Shown here piece after piece: positions 3,801 through 64,000 of a DNA stretch of 64,000 bases. Location: the NCBI RefSeq assembly GCF_964204645.1, contig NC_134030.1, positions 21,085,110-21,149,109 of the forward strand, written 5' to 3'. The position numbers and the translations under genes were made by a program. Within the stretch, counting starts at the first letter, position 1. The number at the start of each line of letters is the position of its first letter. This DNA is from Tubulanus polymorphus. Lineage: Eukaryota > Nemertea > Palaeonemertea > Tubulaniformes > Tubulanidae. Under the pieces are notes generated by a model, which saw only the letters and a list, made by a program, of their open reading frames with translations, was not told the origin of the DNA and did not search any database.

Positions 3801-4175
3801 CAGGGTCCCTACAACTCCTTGATACCTTAAAAGCCCTTAAACGGGAATTGCTTTTGAAGGTGCTCGAAACTCCTTTTAACTCGAGAAAAATGTCAGAAAC
3901 TCTTAACTACTTCAATTTTTGAGAGATAGTCGATTAGATGTTTCAGAAATTGTACGGTAAACTATGTCTAAATCAGTACAGTTGGGAGCAGGATCTTTTG
4001 TACCCAATTAGGTAGTTACCAAATCAGAAAGCTAGTTTGTTTCAAAGATAAATAATTGCTAATTAAACCACCTTGAAGGAATCAATTGCCAATAGAAGGA
4101 ATCGAATCTACTCAAATTGGGATGCAGACGCTTACTCCTTATATCTAGACCTTTGACCGATCGGTAGGGACCCTG
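3801..4175. mobile_element. MITE with CAGGGTCCCTAC ends, copy 1
   Basis: Perfect 12-bp inverted ends: cagggtccctac at 3801-3812 and gtagggaccctg at 4164-4175, 375 bp in all. It shares interior sequence with the 371-bp copy at 18035-18405. Its right end is only 40 bp beyond the MOCOS stop codon, so the MOCOS 3' UTR probably runs into it. No AATAAA was seen in MOCOS orientation here. Confidence 0.85.
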
Positions 4176-4326: not shown

Positions 4327-7300
4327 CTAAAAAAAAAAATTGCATAGCTTTGGAAATCACCTTTCAGACTGATTATTACCTGTTTACAGTATGAGGGTGG
4401 CTCCAAGGAGCGGCCCGGACTGTAGACTAATATCTGTATAGAATAGCTGAATGGGTGCCTCCAAGCTCAAGGGGTTGTTCCAGTAGATTGTTTTAACTAC
4501 GAAGACCGAAGTTTAACCAGGGTACAGGTTCCAGACATGGATTGTTTGAGGGGGTGGCTCCTAATTGATACAACGCCCCCCCCCCCCCCACACCTGCGTG
4601 AGATAGAAATTACCTTTTTATCGTTGATGGTCGTCAGCGTTAAAAGCGGAGTTTGATTTTTTTCCGCAGACGATTGATCAATACAAATCATTTGACATCG
4701 ATTACAACGACCTTCACTCTGCAAATACGCACACAAAACATACATGGCTGCTTACATTCATTAATACAACCTATGACATCATCGAAAATGGTCGCCTTCC
4801 TGGGTACAACCTTAGACATCATCAAATTACCTCATAATAATCCATAGAACAATGCGGTAATCACGGTTGCCTCTTTACAAATACCCCCTATGACATCATC
4901 AATTGCCAATTTAGACTTGTTTCCGGAACAGAATATCCTCCTAAATTTTGACATCAAATTGTTTACTAGTGATTTTATCTATAGACACTTTAAGATGGCT
5001 GCCTCCATAAATCTCCCTATGACATCATTAAATCATCTACTAGGGATTTTATCTATAAACACTCAGAAAAGATGGCTGCCTCCATAAATCCCCTATGACT
5101 TCAAATTGTCTACTAGTGATTTTATATATAGACACTTTAAGATGGCTGCCTCCATAAATCTCCCTATGACATCATTAAATTATCTCCTAACAATCTTATC
5201 TATTAACACTTCCAGAAAAGATGTCTGCCTCCATAGGTCCCCTATGATGTCATCACGTGTGAACTTACGTGAAATTTATGTGATCCGATTTTGATATCGG
5301 ACCAGGAGTCCTCGGCGAACGGTGAATTTCCACCAGAGATAATGAAATTTGCCCGAAATCGACTGAGCAAATTAGATAAATCTGCAACGAAACAAAACAT
5401 CGTAACTTCTAAATAATCTATCCATTCAACCGAGTAAATAGAACAGTTAATGCCTATCTATCCTGTACATTACTTTTTGAAATCGTGATCAAGTTCATAA
5501 TAACAGACCCAGCAGTTATTGAAATAAACAAATTTTATAGCAGGTTACAAAATGACCCAGCTGATTAGGAGAAAAACACGGTATCATTGAGACACCTGAC
5601 ATCCTCCCAAGGGGTCATTCATTTATTACTCACGCATTAGGGGAGGGGGGAGGGGTCAGTGCTATTAATTGCGTACTGTAATGCTTAATGTATATGAACA
5701 AATGGTCGATTTTGCGTACAGAGGGGGAGGGGGGTTGAAAAATTAAAATTTTATGCGTACGTAATAAATGAATGATCCCCAAGCGAAGTTGACATGGACA
5801 TTACTAACTTGAACATGACTCAAGAGAAGAGATATATTCAATGGTTGTTTACCTATTTCATCGGTAGTTGTTGCATTTTGTTTGTTGATGGCTTCGAGGA
5901 GATGTTTCGCGCTTGTTTGATTTATGAGTAAAAACTGCGACTGATTGGCTAGAGATAACTGACCATCTGAAATATATAGAAACAAACATCGATATCACAT
6001 TATTCACATGTCCTTCATAACACTCTGACATGCACATGTAATTATATTCTGACATGCACATGTTCCATATGATATAATGTTAAAACATGTTCTGACGTGT
6101 AGATGTCCCACATTTTACATTCTTGCAAGCAACCATTCCTTGGCTATCGATTTGACATACTCATCTACTTCATCTAACATTTCGACATGCACATGTTTCG
6201 GGCGTATCATTCTGACATGCACATATTCCTTATGTTCAATCTGACATGTACATATCCTTCATATGCACAAGATTCTAACATATACATGTCCCTGATGTAA
6301 TATATTGACATGCATTTGTAACATAGTGACATGCACATGTAACATACTGACATGTACATGTTACATACTGACATGTACATGTTACACACTGACATGCACA
6401 TGTATGAGCTGTATTATTTACCGGTGGTATGGCGAGTAGATCGGTTATCATCGGTGTGCTGTTGTATAAGACGACACCCCGACTGACCTAACGCATCGGA
6501 GACCCATTCACCGGCCTGCTCCCCTAAGTCTATACCATTCACTCTACAAATATACAATTAACTAAACCTTCAACACCTTAGAAACCATATCATTCTATAG
6601 CTGTTTGCAGGGGGGGGGGCAGATACAGGGGTGATTTACGACCATAGTACCCAAAGAGTAGAGCATGTTGCAAGCAAATTCCTATCCTTTCTAAGTTTGG
6701 TAACCGCCTAATTGGGCAACAAATCCCGGTTCTAACTGTACCGATTAATGAGTAGTCTATTAACTTCTAAAGTTTCTAATTGCCTTTGTCTCGAAATTGA
6801 AGGAGTTTCAAAGGAGTTTCACGCATTTTACTCAAATCAAAGGAGTTTCAAGAACCTTTAAAAGCATTTTCCATTTAGAAAGAGTTTTTGAGGAATCGTA
6901 GGGACCCTGTACAATGGCCATGACACTCACCCATCACCACAGACTTTAGCTCTGCATAGAGTCGCGTGTACTTTGTCATTGCGGTAAAAATCACCACCAA
7001 ATGGAACGCATAAATTAGGCATCCCTGAAAAATAAGATTTATTTGTCCGTTGATATAAATTATGTCGGCTAAACTTAAGATTCAAATCTTATACTAAAAT
7101 TTACCTGGTTTTGCTAAGACTAGAATTCGCTGTTCCGCGTCGATGTAAGGTTGTATGAGGCAGAGTTGCGGCGCCCTCTTTTGACTGAGACAGACACCGG
7201 CCTTGTTTACGATCATCCACCGTCGATCGTACAGCAGACCGCGGCTTCCGATCTGCCACGACGCCACCTATTGATAAAACAATACATTAGGCGCCTCTCA

Positions 7301-18034: not shown

Positions 18035-18405
18035 CAGGGTCCCTACGCCTTCTTGATTCCTTACAAACTCATTTCAAATGGAAAATGCTTTTTAAGATGT
18101 TTGAAACTCCGCTAATTTGAGAAAAATGCCCAAAACTACTTTAATTTTGAAAAATAGGCTTTTAGAAATGTTTGTCTAGTTTGTTGTACAGTAAACTACC
18201 CCTAAATCGTTACAGTTGGGACCTGGGTTTCTTTTCTTTTACTAAATTAGGCGGTTACTGAATTAGAAACCTAGTTTAGTAAATGTCTCAAGGATAAAGA
18301 TTGCCTACGAAACCAGTAAATTAAAAAACGGTACCGATTTTTTGAGGCTTCTACTGTATTTTGGAGATATGTCTCCAGGAATGACTGATATCTGTAGGGA
18401 CCCTG
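18035..18405. mobile_element. MITE with CAGGGTCCCTAC ends, copy 2
   Basis: Perfect 12-bp inverted ends at 18035-18046 and 18394-18405; 371 bp, close to the 375 bp of copy 1. Its right end runs straight into the 47-bp tandem array that follows. Confidence 0.87.
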
Positions 18406-18641
18406 TTAAAACTCCTTATATCCAGGAATGACTGATATCTGTAAGGACCCTGTTAAATCTCCTTTTATCCAGGAATGACTGATATCTGTAGGGACCCTGT
18501 TAAAACTCCTTATATCCAGGAATGGCTGATATCTGTAGGGACCCTGTTAAAACTCCTTATATCCAGGAATGGCTGATATCTGTAGGGACCCTGTTAAAAC
18601 TCCTTATATCCAGGAATGGCTGATATCTGTAGGGACCCTGT
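18366..18641. repeat. 47-bp tandem array made of the MITE right end
   Basis: Units read tgtagggaccctgttaaa, then ctccttatatccaggaatg and actgatatc. Each unit ends with the MITE terminus gtagggaccctg. About six units continue from copy 2 of the MITE. Confidence 0.9.
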
Positions 18642-25700: not shown

Positions 25701-26297
25701 ACTCGTGCAACTGTAGCCCATAAAGCTCCGATTCTAATCATGAAATCTAATATGTACGTACAGCATCGCGCGCGCGCGCGCGCAGATTAAGGCGCTTCAA
25801 TTATCTTAAACGTCTTAAGATAAATAATACATGATCCCCGTAGGGGGACTAGCGCGTAATAATATCGATAGGATCGTCATTCATTGGCGCGCGCGCAGCC
25901 CTCAGTCAAAGAGCTTTTAGAGAATTTAATATCGCATCTGCGCAATGACAATATCAACATTTCAACTAGCATCGATTTTACGCTCGTGTCGTGGCCTTCT
26001 TCAATACAAACCAAGAGTCGTCTTGAATATCATCTATTGAAATGTGTTTGCTCAATTGAGTTAAACAGAAGCCACGCGGCTGGCACGCAGGCTGGAGGTG
26101 ATAGTGCGACTGTAAATAACGCGCCCTCAGCTGTGTGTGACACATCAATTTCGTTCCCTAGGAATGCGCTAGATGTTGAATTCACACGTTGCTGACTTTC
26201 GCTGCTGTCGATGATTAGTACGAGGGTAGCTTATACAGTTATGTCATACGCCTGCGGTAGTTTATTATAAACCTGAAGTCTTTTTAATGTTGATAAA
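25701..26297. other. Unique GC-rich stretch, (CG)n run, unassigned frame
   Basis: Contains a pure CG run at 25767-25783. The frame 25884-26195 (+) lacks an ATG at its start and has no recognised homologue; I do not call it a gene. Confidence 0.3.
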
Positions 26298-27180
26298 ATG
26301 TCTGGTGTTTGTAGATCATTTTCAATTAAAAATGTCTCCAGTGAGGTTCAGAACACATATGAAGTGTTGACGATCAGTTTTTGAAAGTGTGCTGATAAAA
26401 TGTCTAATATCTGGTGTTTGTAGTTCATTTTCAATTAGAAATGTCTCAGGTGAAGCACTGGACACATGTGAAGTGTTGATGATCAGTTTTTGAAAGTTCA
26501 CTGAAAAGATGTCTGATACCACATGTTTGTAGTTCATTTTAAATTAGAAATGTCTCAGGTGAAGCACTGAACACATGTGAAGGGTGGACGATCAGTTTTT
26601 GAAAGTGCGCTGATAAAATGTCTAATGTCTGGTGTTTGTAGTTCATTTTCAATTAAAAATGTCTCAGGTGAAGCACTGAACACATGTGAAGTGTGGACGA
26701 TCAGTTTTTGAAAGTGTGCTGATAAAATGTCTAATATCTGGTGTTTGTAGTTCATTTTCAATTAGAAATGTCTCAGGTGAAGCACTGAACACATGTGAAG
26801 GGTGGACGATCAGTTTTTGAAAGTGCGCTGATAAAATGTCTAATGTCAGGTGTTTGTAGTTCATTTTCAATTAAAAATGTCTCAGGTGAAGCACTGAACA
26901 CATGTGAAGTGTGGATGATCAGTTTTTGAAAGTGTGCTGATAAAATGTCTAATGTCTGGTGTTTGTAGTTAATTTTCAATTAGAAATGTCTCAGGTGAAG
27001 CACTGAACACATGTGAAGTGTTGACGATCAGTTTTTGAAAGTGTGCTGATAAAATGTCTAATATCTGGTGTTTGTAGTTCATTTTCAATTAAAAATGTCT
27101 CAGGTGAAGCACTGAACACATGTGAAGTGTGGACGATCAGTTTTTGAAAGTGTTCTGATAAAATGTCTAACGTCTGGTGA
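26298..27180 (-). repeat. 109-bp satellite array 1 (minus orientation)
   Basis: About eight units of 109 bp containing tcaggtgaagcactgaacac and atgtgaagtgtggacgatca. Unit starts recur every 109 bp. 109 is not a multiple of 3, so the ~68-codon frames across two units are not genes. Other arrays are at 34340, 42768, 57825 and 63850. Confidence 0.95.
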
Positions 27181-29364: not shown

Positions 29365-29504
29365 CTGCATTGTGTCGTACTAATATTGTCTGCAGCAATA
29401 CGTGTGTCCACTCAGGTGAATCGCATTATTACATCAACCAAGTAAAAACCAGTGATCAAAAAGAAAAACCAGTGCATCCTGTCTGTAAAACTGGTCGTCC
29501 ACTC

Positions 29505-29596
29505 TTCACATGTGTTCAGTGCTTCACCTGAGACATTTTAAATTGATAATGAACTATACTAACACCAGATATTAGATATTTTATCCGTACACTTTT
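29505..29596 (+). repeat. Single degenerate monomer of the 109-bp satellite
   Basis: cttcacatgtgttcagtgct, tcacctgagaca and accagatattagatatttta match the arrays. An isolated copy shows that the unit can exist alone. Confidence 0.8.
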
Positions 29597-32053: not shown

Positions 32054-32064
32054 GGCACCAGATA

Positions 32065-32560
32065 ATCTGTTCGTTATAACCGATAGTTCTATATACAGCG
32101 GAACCTCGTTACAACGAACTTCAGGAGACCAGAAAATCTGTTCGTTATAACTGATAGTTTTATATACAGCGGAACCTCGTTACAACGAACTTCAGGAGAC
32201 CAGAAAATCTGTTCGTGATAACCGATAGTTCTATATACAGCGGAACCTCGTTACAACGAACTTCAGGGGACCAGAAAATCTGTTCGCTATAACCGATAGT
32301 TCTATATACAGCGGAACCTCGTTACAACGAACTTCAGGAGACCAGAAAATCTGTTCGTTATAACCGATAGTTCTATATACAGCGGAACCTCGTTACAACG
32401 AACTTCAGGGGACCAGAAAATCTGTTCGCTATAACCGATAGTTCTATATACAGCGGAACCTCGTTACAACGAACTTCAGGAGACCAGAAAATCCGTTCGT
32501 TATAACCGATATTTTTATATACAGCGGAACCTCGTTACAACGAACTTCAGGGCATCAGAA
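32065..32560. repeat. 71-bp tandem array, cggaacctcgttacaacgaa
   Basis: Seven units with 71-bp spacing (cagcgg at 32096 and 32167). Units also hold tctgttcgttataaccgata. Confidence 0.95.
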
Positions 32561-32815
32561 AAACTAGCGCTAACATTTTGAGCGATGGTTGATTTTTCCC
32601 GTGATATTTCAGTTGTCATAAATCGGCATATTGTCAGCGTTGTTGAGGTTGTTTATGTTCCCCGAGGGCCGCCCGGTAATGCGCTTGTAATTCTTGATCA
32701 GATTATTTCATAAAAATCATTTGGCGCCGCTAGAGTTTTTCGCAATCGGCGCTAATGCGAAGACGGGGGTTCTGATTGGAGAACTGCGAGGAAATGAATT
32801 CCCGCCGAAAAAAAC

Positions 32816-34339: not shown

Positions 34340-35075
34340 GTTTTTAATTGAAAATGAACTACAAACACCAGATATTAGACATTTTATCAGAACACTTTCA
34401 AAAACTGATCGTCCACACTTCACATGTGTTCAGTGCTTCACCTGAGACATTTTTAATTGAAAATGAACTACAAACATCAGACATTAGACATTTTATCAGA
34501 ACACTTTCAAAAACTGATCGTCCACACTTCACATGTGTTCAGTGCTTCACCTGAGACATTTTTAATTGAAAATGAACTACAAACACCAGACATTAGACAT
34601 TTTATCAGCTCACTTTCAAACTGATCGTCCACACTTCACATGTGTTCAGTGCTTCACCTGAGACATTTTTAATCGAAAATGAACTACAAACACCAGATAT
34701 TAGACATTTTATCAGCACACTTTCAAAAACTGATCGTCCACACTTCACATGTGTTCAGTGCTTCACCTGAGACATTTTTAATTGAAAATGAACTACAAAC
34801 ACCAGATATTAGACATTTTATCAGCTCACTTTCAAACTGATCGTCCACACTTCACATGTGTTCAGTGCTTCACCTGAGACATTTCTATTTGAAAATGAAC
34901 TACAAACACCAGATATTAGACATTTTATCAGCACACTTTCAAAAACTGATCGTCCACACTTCACATGTGTTCAGTGCTTCACCTGAGACATTTTTGATTG
35001 AAAATGAACTACAAACACCAGACATTAGACATTTTATCAGCGCACTTTCAAAAACTGTTCGTCCACACTTCAGAT
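34340..35075 (+). repeat. 109-bp satellite array 2
   Basis: About seven units in + orientation, two of them 107 bp because ttcaaactgatc replaces ttcaaaaactgatc. Inverted relative to array 1. Confidence 0.95.
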
Positions 35076-35538
35076 GACACTTTCAAATAAGGTGAATGCC
35101 TGAAGGATTCCCAGGCTGTAACAGATTGATATACACATCATTGAACTTAGCTCATATATTCTGACTCACATCTCACATGGCCTTGTGTTAGTTAGTCTGT
35201 GGTCAATCCTAGAGCTGTACCTGCCAGTGTAAATCAGCTACTGGTCAATCAATCTATGTTTACTTACTGGTCAGTATTTACAGCTGTTGTTCTGATAGTC
35301 TAACATGGTTTATTCGTACCTCCGATTTCTAGAATCAACCCCTGGCATGCGTTGGTATCTCCGGTGTACTGGAACCGTGGCAGTTTCTTTACCCTCAGGT
35401 TCATATAGAAACACTTTTCTCGTTTATAACAAAGAGTTTTATAACAAGTAAAATGATTTATTTTTCACAAGCGTTTCGTGTATTTGTTCTGGAAATCTAG
35501 TTTATTTGTATTCAAGGTCGGGTTATCTGAGTCGGTAA

Positions 35539-36540: not shown

Positions 36541-36990
36541 TTCTTCTCCACTAAAGTTGTAACCCATTTTGATCTTCCCTTCTACGCAGCACTGAAAAGA
36601 GAAGAATAATCATTTCCGGGAATTCTACCCGTATGAACGTACGTTCTCACATACAAGTACGTGGTGTATGTCGAGTACACGTACAAGTATTGTTGGGTAT
36701 CACACATTTCTGTATGATGATATATGCGTATGCTTGTATTTTTGTATCTGACGCGTTAAAACGAGATGTTGTTTTATGAAGCCGAGTTTCTTGAATTATT
36801 GCGCGTATCTTTCCCCCTGGCTGCGTCGAAAACTAACGAAAATCGTATTTTTTTTTTTTCAAAACCACCGAAACAGTTCCGATTTAGGAGGAGTCTACTA
36901 TAGTGTATACTGATATGAAAGTGATGCAGACGCTTCCTTGAAATTTTTGAATTTTTCCTGTTAAAACTGCTTATATCCAGGAATGACTGA
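36541..36990. other. Unique stretch with a fragment of the 47-bp MITE satellite
   Basis: Mostly single copy. About 36955-36995 reads ctgttaaaactgcttatatc and aggaatgactgatctgt, an isolated piece of the CAGGGTCCCTAC family. Confidence 0.5.
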
Positions 36991-37380
36991 TCTGTATATC
37001 ATAATCTTTGAGCGTCGATGCGCCTGTTTCGCAATTGATTAATTAGGCGGTCGTTAATTGCTAATTAGCGCGTCGCAAATTGTCTTATTGTCATTGGTTG
37101 ATTCGTGCTTTATCTTTTTGTTCCCGTCGGACCGCGACTGACTGACTGACCGATTGACCGATCGCGACTAACCATCAATTAACAACAACAACAAACAGCG
37201 GAAACTTCCTCTCTTTGCCAAATTACCTTTGATTAACGAAGAGAGGGTACCCCTGGGGGGGACGCGCAGGGGGAAGCTCCCCTCGCTTGTTTGCGCTCAT
37301 GCAACACCTAATTAACTCTGATAAGGTCTATTCTTGTTCTGCGCGCTGAATAGGTGTTCGCCGACAACTCTTGTGGTAGC
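36991..37380. promoter_or_regulatory. Candidate regulatory island rich in TAAT and FOX/T-box-like words
   Basis: Single-copy sequence with aattgattaattaggcgg, gttaattgctaattagcg, catcaattaacaacaac, cacctaattaactctg and aataggtgtt. The clustering of homeodomain-type cores between repeat blocks suggests an enhancer. This is inference from word content only. Confidence 0.3.
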
Positions 37381-40740: not shown

Positions 40741-40982
40741 CTCGCTGCTCGGGGACGGCGAGGCTGCAGTCACTATCAGACCCTCACGTACCCTGTAATG
40801 ATGCAGACGCTTCCTCAAATATGAAATGTTCGCCTTAACGACTCCTTATCTCCAGGAGTGACTGATCTGCGGGGAACCCATCGGTACCTTTTTTAGTTTT
40901 CCTGCCGCAATCGCGCTGAAATTCTGAAAACTGCCTGCATTTACAAATTTAAATCAATCGTTGAAATTTGTTCCGTTTTTTC

Positions 40983-42120: not shown

Positions 42121-42767
42121 CTAAAACTAGGTCTTTATTCTTCATGTTGGCTCATAAACTCGAGGTCATTTTCTACACGTGGGATCTCCAGAGGTCTTAT
42201 TCTGAATGTCGTCTTTCTTAGATTCGTTTTCTACAGATACATACCAAACCACCGGGTCCTGGTAACTAGGCTTTCAATGTAAACTCGCAATAATATTTCC
42301 GTCAAGTGGAACCGAACCCCCAGCAGAACCCTGTATATTATATGCTCTGTATCTAATATCATTGAAGTGGTTGTTTTAAGCGTAATCGAAGTCATCCATT
42401 CCGTTAAAAATCTTACCGCACACAAACAAAAAAAATCAGTTAAAAATGCGGAGACCCGTGCGTGAAAATCAGTGAATTTATGCCGGCTCTTAGCGCATGA
42501 CAGCAATATGATATTTTGCACTGGTTTTTAGTTTATTGTTCGTAGCTGAATAATCGTGTCTCGGGGCTCGTGAAATGCTTCACACGTAGATATGAAGTGT
42601 GTTTATGCGTCGAGGGCTGTTTTTAGATTTTTATTTTTTTCGTGAGGAATTTTTTTATGTCAGGACACGAGAATTAGGTTTTATATTCATGGGTCGGTTC
42701 GCTTTGGGGATGTGGATTTATAGAAGTGATAAATCTGCATCCTGCATACTGCATCCCTTCAGAGATA
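42121..42767. other. Unique stretch, no gene
   Basis: A 96-codon frame at 42231-42521 (-) has no ATG-context or motif support. Nothing else seen. Confidence 0.35.
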
Positions 42768-44325
42768 TTAGACATTTCATCAGCACACTTTCAAAAACTG
42801 ATCCACACTTCACATGTGTTCAGTGCTTCACCTGAGACATTTTTAATTGAAAATGAACTACAAACACCAGATATTAGACATTTTATCAGCACACTTTCAA
42901 AAACTGATCGTCAATACTTCACATGTGTTCAGTGCTTCACCTGAGACATTTTTAATTGAAAATGAACTACAAACACCAGACATTAGACATTTTATCAGCA
43001 CACTTTCAAAAACTGCTCATCCACACTTCACATGTGTTCAGTGCTTCACCTGAGACATTTTATCAGCACACTTTCAAAAACTGATCGTCAATACTTCACA
43101 TGTGTTCATTGTTTCACCTGAGACATTTCTAATTGAAAATGAACTACAAACACCAGATATTAGACATTTTATCAGCACACTTTCAAAAACTGATCGTCCA
43201 CACTTCACATGTGTTCAGTGCTTCACCTGAGATATTTCTAATTGAAAATGAACTACAAACACCAGATATTAGATATTTTATCAGCACACTTTCAAAAACT
43301 GATCATCCACACTTCACATGTGTTCAGTGCTTCACCTGAGACATTTTTAATCGAAAATCAACTACAAACACCAGATATTAGATATTTTATCTGCACACTT
43401 TCAAAAACTGATCATCCACACTTCACATGTGTTCAGTGCTTCACCTGAGACATTTCTAATTGAAAATGAACTACAAACACCAGATATTAGACATTTTATC
43501 AGCGCACTTTCAAAAACTGTTCGTCCACATTTCACATGTGTTCAGTGCTTCACCTGAGACATTTTTAATTGAAAATGAACTACAAACACCAGATATTAGA
43601 CATTTTATCAGCATACTTTCAAAAACTGATCGTCCACACTTCACATGTGTTCAGTGCTTCACCTGAGACATTTCTAATTGAAAATGAACTACAAACACCA
43701 GATATTAGACATTTTATCAGCGCACTTTCAAAAACTGTTCGTCCACATTTCACATGTGTTCAGTGCTTCACCTGAGACATTTTTAATTGAAAATGAACTA
43801 CAAACACCAGATATTAGACATTTTATCAGCATACTTTCAAAAACTGATCGTCCACACTTCACATGTGTTCAGTGCTTCACCTGAGACATTTCTAATTGAA
43901 AATGAACTACAAACACCAGATATTAGACATTTTATCAGCGCACTTTCAAAAACTGTTCGTCCACATTTCACATGTGTTCAGTGCTTCACCTGAGACATTT
44001 TTAATTGAAAATGAACTACAAACACCAGATATTAGACATTTTATCAGCATACTTTCAAAAACTGATCGTCCACACTTCACATGTGTTCAGTGCTTCACCT
44101 GAGACATTTCTAATTGAAAATGAACTACAAACACCAGATATTAGACATTTTATCAGCGCACTTTCAAAAACTGTTCGTCCACATTTCACATGTGTTCAGT
44201 GCTTCACCTGAGACATTTTTAATTGAAAATGAACTACAAACACCAGATATTAGACATTTTATCAGCATACTTTCAAAAACTGATCGTCCACACTTCACAT
44301 GTGTTCAGTGCTTCACCTGAGACAC
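42768..44325 (+). repeat. 109-bp satellite array 3
   Basis: About 14 units, the longest array here. The left half is varied, with one truncated unit near 43060; the right half from 43460 is a regular 218-bp dimer. Confidence 0.97.
43460..44325 (+). repeat. 218-bp higher-order repeat within array 3
   Basis: Monomer A (cgcactttcaaaaactgttc, cacatttcac) alternates with monomer B (catactttcaaaaactgatc, cacacttcac). A starts at 43460, 43678, 43896 and 44114; B at 43569, 43787, 44005 and 44223. All A copies translate identically, as do all full B copies. Confidence 0.95.
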
Positions 44326-44671: not shown

Positions 44672-45265
44672 TCTAGTCTGATCTTTTGACGTGAGAGTGA
44701 TATCTGAGTTGGATGGTACAGTAGACTCCGCTCAAGTCGGATCTTTTGACTTGAGAGTGATATCTGAGTTGGATGATACAGTAGACTCCGCTCAAGTCGG
44801 ATCTTTTGACTTGAGAGTGATATCTGAGTTGGATGGTACAGTAGACTCCGCTCAAGTCAGACCTTTTGACTTGAGAGTGATATCTGAGTTGGATGATGTA
44901 GACTCCGCTCAAGTCGGATCTTTTGACTTGAGAGTGATATCCGAGTTGGATGGTACAGTAGACTCAGCTCAAGTCTGATCTTTTGACTTGAGAGTGATAT
45001 CTGAGTTGGATGGTACAGTAGACTCCGCTCAAGTCAGACCTTTTGACTTGAGAGTGATATCTGAGTTGGATGGTACAGTAGACTCAGCTCAAGTCTGATC
45101 TTTTGACTTGAGAGTGATATCTGAGTTGGATGGTACAGTAGACTCCGCTCAAGTCAGACCTTTTGACTTGAGAGTGATATCTGAGTTGGATGATGTAGAC
45201 TCCGCTCAAGTCGGATCTTTTGACTTGAGAGTGATATCCGAGTTGGATGATACAGTATCGGATTC
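44672..45265. repeat. 60-bp tandem array, gtagactccgctcaagtcgg
   Basis: About ten units with 60-bp spacing; two units lack 3 bp (gatgtagac for gatacagtagac type). Frames are open on both strands because 60 is a multiple of 3. Confidence 0.95.
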
Positions 45266-45383
45266 TGCATGTGTTGGATATCACTGTCAAGTCAAAAGAT
45301 CAAAAGAATCTAGTATATAATCATAACGCCATGTACTTTCTTTATCTGAAAGATATTTTTTCTCACGGGAATTCAGTACGGGA

Positions 45384-45777: not shown

Positions 45778-45968
45778 GGAAATCCCCCTATGACATCATC
45801 GAACTGCTTACTGCTTTGCTGGGTCCACCGCGAAAAAAACCTATGACATCGTTAAGCTGCCAGGTCTATAGAACCTTTCATACAAAATGGCCGCCTCCAT
45901 GAATCCCCCTATGACATCATCAAATTGTGTACTAGTTATTTGATCTATAGACCTGTAGAAAAGATGTC
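45778..45968. repeat. 'tatgacatcatc' family copies
   Basis: Two to three units with ccccctatgacatcatcaaa and atctatagacctgtagaaa. They directly precede the 47-bp array. Confidence 0.75.
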
Positions 45969-45974
45969 TGCTGT

Positions 45975-46885
45975 CCCTGTTAAAACTTTTTACATCCAGG
46001 AATGACTGATATCTGTAAGGACCCTGTTAAATCTCCTTATATCCAGGAATGACTGATATCTGTAAGGACCCTGTTAAAACTCCTTATATCCAGGGATGAC
46101 TGATATCTGTAGGGACCCTGTTAAAACTCCTTATATCCAGGGATGACTGATATCTGTAGGGACCCTGTTAAAACTCCTTATATCCAGGGATGACTGATAT
46201 CTGTAGGGACCCTGTTAAAACTCCTTATATGCAGGAATGACTGATATCTGTAGGGACCCTGTTAAAACTCCTTATATCCAGGGATGACTGATATCTGTAG
46301 GGACCCTGTTAAAACTCCTTATATCCAGGAATGACTGATATCTGTAAGGACCCTGTTAAAACTCCTTATATCCAGGGATGACTGATATCTGTAGGGACCC
46401 TGTTAAAACTCCTTATATCCAGGGATGACTGATATCTGTAGGGACCCTGTTAAAACTCCTTATATCCAGGGATGACTGATATCTGTAGGGACCCTGTTAA
46501 ATCTCCTTATATCCAGGAATGACTGATATCTGTAAGGACCCTGTTAAAACTCCTTATATCCAGGGATGACTGATATCTGTAGGGACCCTGTTAAAACTCC
46601 TTATATCCAGGGATGGCTGATATCTGTAGGGACCCTGTTAAATCTCCTTATATCCAGGAATGACTGATATCTGTAGGGACCCTGTTAAAACTCCTTATAT
46701 GCAGGAATGACTGATATCTGTAGGGACCCTGTTAAAACTCCTTTTATCCAGGAATGACTGATATCTGTAGGGACCCTGTTAAAACTCCTTATATCCAGGA
46801 ATGACTGATATCTGTAGGGATCTTGTCAAGAATGACTGATCTGTAGGGACCTTGTCAAGAATGACTGATCTGTAGGGACCTTGTT
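45975..46885. repeat. Large 47-bp array of the CAGGGTCCCTAC MITE end
   Basis: About 18 units of 47 bp (ctgttaaaactccttatat, ccaggaatgactgatatc, tgtagggacc), plus three shortened ~30-bp units at the right edge. Each unit carries the MITE terminus gtagggaccctg. There is no intact MITE at this site. Confidence 0.95.
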
Positions 46886-57740: not shown

Positions 57741-57824
57741 GTAAATTGAGAAGTGGGTGGCTTTTGAATGAGCTTCGTTTTTGATGATATTTTTTTTCTT
57801 CGACGTTAATAGTGTTAGTCGTTC

Positions 57825-58110
57825 AATTTCAATTAAAAATGTCTCAGATGACGCACTGAACACATGTGAAGTGTGGACGAATAGTTTGTGAAAATGTGCT
57901 GATAAAATGTCTAATATCTGGTGTTTGTAGTTCATTTTCTATAAAAAAAATGTCTCAGATGAAGTACTGAACACGTGTGAAGTGTGGACGATCAGTTTTT
58001 GCAAGTTAGCTGATAAAATATCTAATATCTGGTGTTTGTAGTTCATTTTCAATTAAAAATGTCTCAGGTGAAGCACTGAACACATGTGAAGTGTGGACGA
58101 TCAGTTTCAG
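57825..58110 (-). repeat. 109-bp satellite array 4 (minus orientation)
   Basis: Two and a half units with gcactgaacacatgtgaagt. More diverged than array 3. Confidence 0.92.
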
Positions 58111-63460: not shown

Positions 63461-63849
63461 AACACGGTTCAATTATGTAATGTATCAATATCAGGTAGTA
63501 CTGGTATAGCAGTGTCTCCTCGGTGCCGCATACAGTAAGTGTATCACAGACTGGATTGAATATCAATGACAGATCTCTAGAGGCAAACGGAGCTGCAGGA
63601 TTTACGACGTAAAGAGACTCTATTACTCTTTGATTGCGATACCCACGTAAAGCGACTACTGTTTATCACTAAGCTTACCCAACCCAGCTTCTAGATTTAC
63701 ATCAAACAGAAACCAACTTTTATCCGAAATGATCATCCGTCTTTCAAAAGACCCATTTTTGTCGGCCATCGATTTTCTTTGCTTTGGTTCTGCAGCTATG
63801 AATAATGTAGGTATGAATTCACAGCTGGGATGAGATCATCCATTCCTTA
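63461..63849. other. Unique stretch, no gene
   Basis: No supported frame or repeat family. Confidence 0.4.
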
Positions 63850-64000
63850 CCTTAGACATTTCCAATTGAAAATGAACTACAAACACCAAATATTAGACAT
63901 TCTATCAGCACCCATTCAAAAACTGATCGTCCACACTTCACATGTGTTCAGTGCTTCATCTGAGACATTTTTAATTGAAAATGAACTACAAACACCAGAT
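63850..64000 (+). repeat. 109-bp satellite array 5, continues past the right edge
   Basis: The first unit and part of the second: gaaaatgaactacaaacacc, gatcgtccacacttcacatg. Confidence 0.93.

Follow-up and report, generated by a model that had tools for sequence, protein, structure and literature searches.

Tandem arrays built from the right end of a MITE in the nemertean Tubulanus polymorphus

We analyzed a window of 64,000 nucleotides from Tubulanus polymorphus (NCBI RefSeq assembly GCF_964204645.1, contig NC_134030.1, positions 21,085,110 to 21,149,109 of the forward strand), which lies on the contig designated C6 here, in a genome of 268 Mb and 77 contigs. The window holds a 47-bp satellite array at 46 kb, complete and partial copies of a MITE, and a short array of extra terminal units that begins directly at the right end of one of these copies at 18 kb (Table 1). 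TRF counted 18.0 copies of the 47-bp unit with 96% matches in the array at 46 kb, beside which no MITE body was recognized by eye, and 5.7 copies of the unit at 18374-18641. Allowing up to two mismatches, GTAGGGACCCTG occurs 30 times in the window, a number equaled in none of 100 shuffles, compared with 2.75 expected.

Table 1. Coordinates of the MITE copies, terminal units and adjoining repeats within the window
Feature	Position	Strand	Remarks
MITE copy without array	3801..4175	+	Both termini present
Left terminus of a further MITE copy	6898..6909	+	Copy itself on the minus strand
MITE copy, array begins at its right end	18035..18405	+	Both termini present
Five extra 47-bp terminal units	18406..18640	+	Immediately past the MITE terminal base
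Truncated MITE right end	36923..36998	+	GATGCAGACGCTTCC subterminal sequence at 36923
Truncated MITE right end	40800..40882	+	GATGCAGACGCTTCC subterminal sequence at 40800
74-bp dispersed tandem repeat, one copy	45893..45966	+	Array at 46 kb adjoins
47-bp satellite array, 18 units	45975..46820	+	Starts mid-unit at CCCTG; TRF and unit comparison
Shortened 29-bp units, far end of the array at 46 kb	46799..46884	+	TRF, 2.9 copies

Several other repeats share the window. A 60-bp array at 44675-45301 has units starting with TACAGTAGACTCCGCTCAAG, which we take to be a Tc1/mariner-pogo-like end, and directly behind it 25 bp of this unit recur in inverted orientation (45277-45301); the array may represent a second satellite derived from a transposon end. 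The units of a 71-bp array at 32057-32562 contain TACAGCGGAACCTCGTTACAACGAA, presumably resembling a pogo-type terminal repeat. Members of a 109-bp satellite family lie on both strands, as arrays at 26297-27179, 34341-35076, 42763-44324 and 57812-58107 and as further pieces at 29487-29595 and 63849-64000, while 77-, 74-, another 47- and 39-bp repeat families each occupy several places. On the minus strand, an open frame at 11274-12278 matches class-V aminotransferases (Pfam PF00266, E 4.6e-6) and perhaps belongs, as we assume, to a molybdenum cofactor sulfurase gene.

Aligned to the last 60 bp of the MITE, the 47-bp unit scored 22 for the copy at 3.8 kb and 32 for the copy at 18 kb, compared with a maximum of 13 over 2000 letter shuffles per MITE end. 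The array at 46 kb is thus a satellite built of the MITE's right end, confirming what the first-pass annotation had proposed from the window. Its further statements that the MITE is complete in two copies of 371-375 bp, that the copy at 18 kb catches the transition by passing directly into terminal units, and that about 18 units without an intact MITE stand at 46 kb were likewise supported. The copy at 18 kb lacks the usual subterminal stretch and meets the unit at CTCCAGG; the copy at 3.8 kb shows no target duplication, with a match in one of five bases. Two supposedly isolated units near 36955 and 40830 did not hold up: each is preceded by the MITE's own subterminal GATGCAGACGCTTCC, ruling out loose satellite units at these places and identifying both as truncated right ends.

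The element itself is short, non-coding and present in many copies, with complete copies mostly measuring 361-469 bp (the shortest solo copy has 319 bp) and terminal inverted repeats of ~12 bp, CAGGGTCCCTAC ... GTAGGGACCCTG. Exact matches to its 12-bp terminus number 974 genome-wide, counting those within array units, compared with 18 for a reversed control. Two first-look searches returned 394 and 782 MITE candidates, 40 of which were scored in each. For the target-site analysis, 42 entries were reduced to 35 by merging strand twins, and seven with extra units, L074, and L013, which had too little flank, were set aside, leaving 26 solo copies. In these, the 5-bp flanks were identical at a rate of 0.715 compared with 0.359 after shuffling (z 9.1), whereas all other lengths from 2 to 10 bp reached z values of at most 2.0 and thus found no support as target-site duplications. 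Four or five of the five bases matched in 17 of the 26 copies, and among these 17 duplications T was favored at the first base and A at the last. Omitting L001, L003 and L004, which are nearly identical, left a z of 7.7 at 5 bp and of 2.1 at 6 bp (n=23). These three copies, with tree end branches of 0.006-0.011, perfect 5-bp duplications and left ends reading CAAGGTTCC, form a younger group related to the old family, and this group is likely a trail to an active transposase.

The CAGGG-type termini presumably fit hAT ends. Taken with the 5-bp duplications, they make the MITE a candidate member of the hAT5 group on sequence grounds. As summarized in PMC12730594, which cites Kapitonov and Jurka (2007), hAT5 was defined with 5-bp target duplications; this is the likeness to our element, to which no transposase is tied here. 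Between paired termini ~3.3 kb apart at two loci (L077 and L078), no closed frame exceeded 129 aa. The lack of a transposase-size frame ruled out an autonomous partner at either locus, and L077 turned out to be a left-end array.

Across the genome, we read right-end arrays at 18 loci, including the two in the window, with between 2 and 61 full extra units per locus and 300 in total; these loci are a sample, taken from the first 100 places listed of 974, 160 and 252 matches. At all 18, the tandem units are homologous to part of the element: each consists of its last 34 to 47 bp, that is, a subterminal stretch plus the 12-bp terminus. MITEs with few extra units, whose existence had been predicted from the window, were found with two or three (L011, L076, L079), five (L073 and the window at 18 kb) and six units (L074), with larger counts reaching 61 (L070), and none of the 18 loci carried exactly one full extra unit. 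Two unit families emerged, one of 45/47 bp starting with TTAAAAC (eight loci), whose two forms differ by a doubled AT, and, beyond the annotation, a second of 34 bp starting with TATATCC (ten loci). A single 34-bp unit is embedded in the 45-bp array of L072. In both families, the next unit follows immediately after the terminal G; directly past the terminus, 137 of the 300 units start with TATATCC and 129 with TTAAAAC, the other listed starts being close variants.

Left-end arrays were also present, at L077 (41-bp unit) and L044 (about 26-bp unit) as well as on the left of L087. Flanking DNA is contained in the 26-bp unit of L081 and in the left array of L087, and L082 has a 20-bp unit and no recognizable MITE body. 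Given L081 and the left side of L087, the exact terminal joint is not universal among the arrays, although the right-end families follow it as a rule. Among the first 100 of 252 dimers listed, 93 consisted of right-end units and seven came from the L081 and L082 arrays, a right-end excess that arose although the searched 12-mer is identical at both ends.

Right-end arrays occur both as composites with a MITE (L070, L073, L079 and others) and as free arrays without a body recognized by eye (window at 46 kb, L072, L080, L086). Megabase heterochromatic satellites form long arrays close to centromeres or telomeres; in the sequence retrieved, each of the 18 arrays here measured less than 3 kb, with L087 extending past its stretch, and they are distributed over seven contigs, although longer arrays could be absent from the assembly. 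By eye, the 61 units of L070 show a higher-order pattern made of recurring four-unit runs, in which the 45-bp units carry fixed variants in a constant order. The DNA flanking the L085 and L086 arrays resembles, as we take it, exons encoding an acyl-CoA ligase and a choline-phosphate cytidylyltransferase, and both arrays seem by eye to be intronic.

The arrays sit on old, ungrouped copies, a further point not covered by the annotation. Median pairwise identity was 80.2% among solo bodies (27 copies, 336 of 351 pairs) and 79.5% among array-bearing bodies (eight copies, 24 pairs); at a median of ~80%, the MITE copies are mostly old. In a tree of 37 bodies, ten from the 18 array loci and 27 from solo copies whose orientation (doubtful for L001, L003 and L004) was checked beforehand, array status changed nine times compared with a shuffled mean of 8.9-9.0, and an earlier tree of 36 rows had given ten changes compared with 8.8, indicating that array-bearing copies are not clustered. 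Both trees are near star-like, with two starred branches each, and therefore exclude little. An ancestral MITE with two right ends might have transposed, its copies later expanding the dimer in place. The joint, identical at all loci within a family, agrees with this scenario, and the lineage concerned could hide in a star-like tree; however, array-bearing bodies are ungrouped, and two unit families would require two masters.

The outer borders of the arrays bear on the same scenario. At seven of the 18 loci, chosen by eye as those with both borders readable, a 5-bp duplication (at least four of five bases) was found outside the array once, compared with 17 of 26 solo copies (Fisher p 0.03), or 14 of 23 without the young group of L001, L003 and L004 (p 0.08). 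The mean match was 34%, that is, chance level, compared with 71.5% for solo copies. Most of these arrays thus seem to have lost the original outer border, an outcome that neither simple array transposition nor simple slippage inside the element predicts. The one near-perfect duplication, ATATG/ATACG (four of five bases), lies outside the 22 counted units of L085, as a transposed array would leave it, and speaks for transposition of a ready-made dimer. Its absence in six of seven cases and four other arrays that finish in partial units (L069, L074, L075, L083) argue in the opposite direction, and we regard this explanation as unlikely.

Complementarily, we compared the units with one another. 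The patterns that found most array loci favor consensus ends, so similarity can be judged fairly only on the 15 unsearched bases. Over these, units of the 18 array loci were 86.8% identical between loci, compared with 76.2% for solo ends, 28 of 35 of which were kept by a similarity filter (the unfiltered 35 reached 56.3%, chance matches still included); the difference was attained in 32 of 1000 permutations. Linked variants recur across chromosomes, with A6T and A13T shared by the window at 18 kb (C6) and L070 (C9), and G21T and G25C by L073 (C10), L083 (C8) and L084 (C9); these rare combinations may instead derive from variation among MITE ends. Within the window, G37A is confined, among the 18 right-end loci, to the arrays at 18 and 46 kb, suggesting exchange between the two.

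At the same time, body-attached ends were closer to their own array (2.63 differences per 28 bases) than to other arrays (3.10; 17 of the 18 loci), and none of 5000 shuffles came out as low; one L074 unit was misread by a one-base shift, inflating the distance for that locus. Such closeness is what local birth would give, that is, an independent origin of each array, with certain sites in the right end favored for slippage or micro-homology repair. In the same line, attached ends share private variants with their own arrays (ACCAAT in L079, GGCACC in L070, GAGACC in L075), and both internal break points usually follow CTCCT, whose CCT is common to the terminal CCCTG. In the 34-bp family, the first right end matches the start of the unit at L011, L076, L086 and L087 and deviates by about one base at L075, L079 and L084; given this mostly good fit, the family offers no clear case against local birth. 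In the 45/47-bp family, in contrast, the first right end differs from TTAAAAC at three of four readable loci, namely L070 and L071 (both TTGAAAAC) and L072 (CTAAAAC; no body recognized), agreeing at L073. With linked variants recurring across chromosomes as well, purely independent births appear rather improbable. Together, the unit relations are best read as common seeds plus local homogenization, with local birth accompanied by some exchange as a serious alternative.

The joints could also date from the MITE's active period, as products of a transposase that joined a cut or self-inserting end to a TNNNA target within the element's own end. Right-end joints do fall on the exact terminal base, target duplications favor T first and A last, and TTAAA ranks fifth of 78 five-mers in one right end. 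TATAT, in turn, ranks only thirteenth of 78, TGAAC of a left array falls below background, and the units of some left-end arrays contain flanking DNA (L081, left side of L087). Moreover, most copies are old, and no nested MITE-in-MITE founder was noticed in the loci read. We therefore hold this origin to be very unlikely.

As the best explanation, we tentatively propose, at somewhat short of an even chance, that duplication of a terminal segment was followed by expansion, that recombination or repair passed the tandem from one right end to another, and that some arrays lost their MITE. The initial duplication, in a MITE right end, would have had one breakpoint at the terminal G and another inside the element, before either TTAAAAC or TATATCC. 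Slippage and unequal exchange would then have extended it in tandem, and homology-guided repair would have carried it onto further MITE copies, by then already old, at their right ends, presumably by ectopic copying from an array followed by joining of the far side to flanking DNA. Spread of this kind would produce an identical joint everywhere and the loss of the target duplication on the array side. Local homogenization would cause an array to share private variants with its own end, and decay or deletion of the body would leave free satellites such as that at 46 kb. Fixed starts, unclustered bodies, linked variants across chromosomes, missing outer duplications and partial end units count for homology-guided spread; the closeness of attached ends to their own arrays and the outer duplication of L085 count against it, and the first ends of the 34-bp family slightly lower our confidence.

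Satellites derived from MITEs or terminal repeats have already been published, and the present case is a variant of this theme. In the Xstir/Xmix MITE system of Xenopus (Hikosaka and Kawahara 2004, as reported in PMC12628747, PMC9659126 and PMC2872659), the MITE, a free tandem array and MITE-plus-array composites coexist as they do here; these accounts place the source of Xstir in the terminal inverted repeat in the table of one review and in internal MITE sequence in the text of the other (PMC12628747, PMC9659126). Our units, in contrast, are the extreme end including the terminus, are joined at the terminal base and come in at least two lengths, and the Xenopus MITE is described as piggyBac-type (PMC2872659), as opposed to the 5-bp duplications found here. 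In Tetris/TIR-220 of Drosophila virilis, a non-autonomous element likewise has inverted terminal repeats that gave rise to satellite arrays, which occur attached to the element or without it, but the ~220-bp Tetris repeats are described as lying inside long foldback terminal repeats behind an outer flanking domain (PMC4079207), whereas our MITE has no outer domain and terminal repeats of ~12 bp. The Xenopus tropicalis element miDNA4 (Scalvenzi and Pollet 2014, as reported in PMC12628747 and PMC9659126) similarly has MITE-linked arrays of variable copy number that become free satellites upon element decay; its repeat is said to lie inside a Tc1/mariner MITE, whereas our arrays extend outward from the end. 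For the pDv element and the pvB370 satellite of the Drosophila virilis group, a table row in PMC9659126 likewise gives a class II terminal repeat as the origin of the satellite. Coral CMITE arrays, ascribed to slippage, are tandem and MITE-derived too, but according to PMC2872659 they consist of whole elements with TTAA duplications rather than ends. Among the open-access papers listed in our literature searches, we noticed no report of a MITE whose exact terminal base is the starting point of outward arrays in several unit lengths.

How satellites are born is an old question, as the process is usually visible only as a finished array. Here, a single genome displays MITE ends standing alone, others bearing two to six extra units, long attached arrays and free arrays, so that the intermediate stages are unusually clear, with two unit lengths each having one fixed joint. 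Models of birth, be it a transposed dimer, local slippage or homology-guided spread, thereby become testable through target duplications and private variants. It is also conceivable, albeit improbable, that a younger satellite has been colonizing the dead right ends of one old MITE family, moving by homology between old, unrelated copies and invariably docking on the exact terminal base. If so, this old family would have offered the satellite landing sites throughout the genome.
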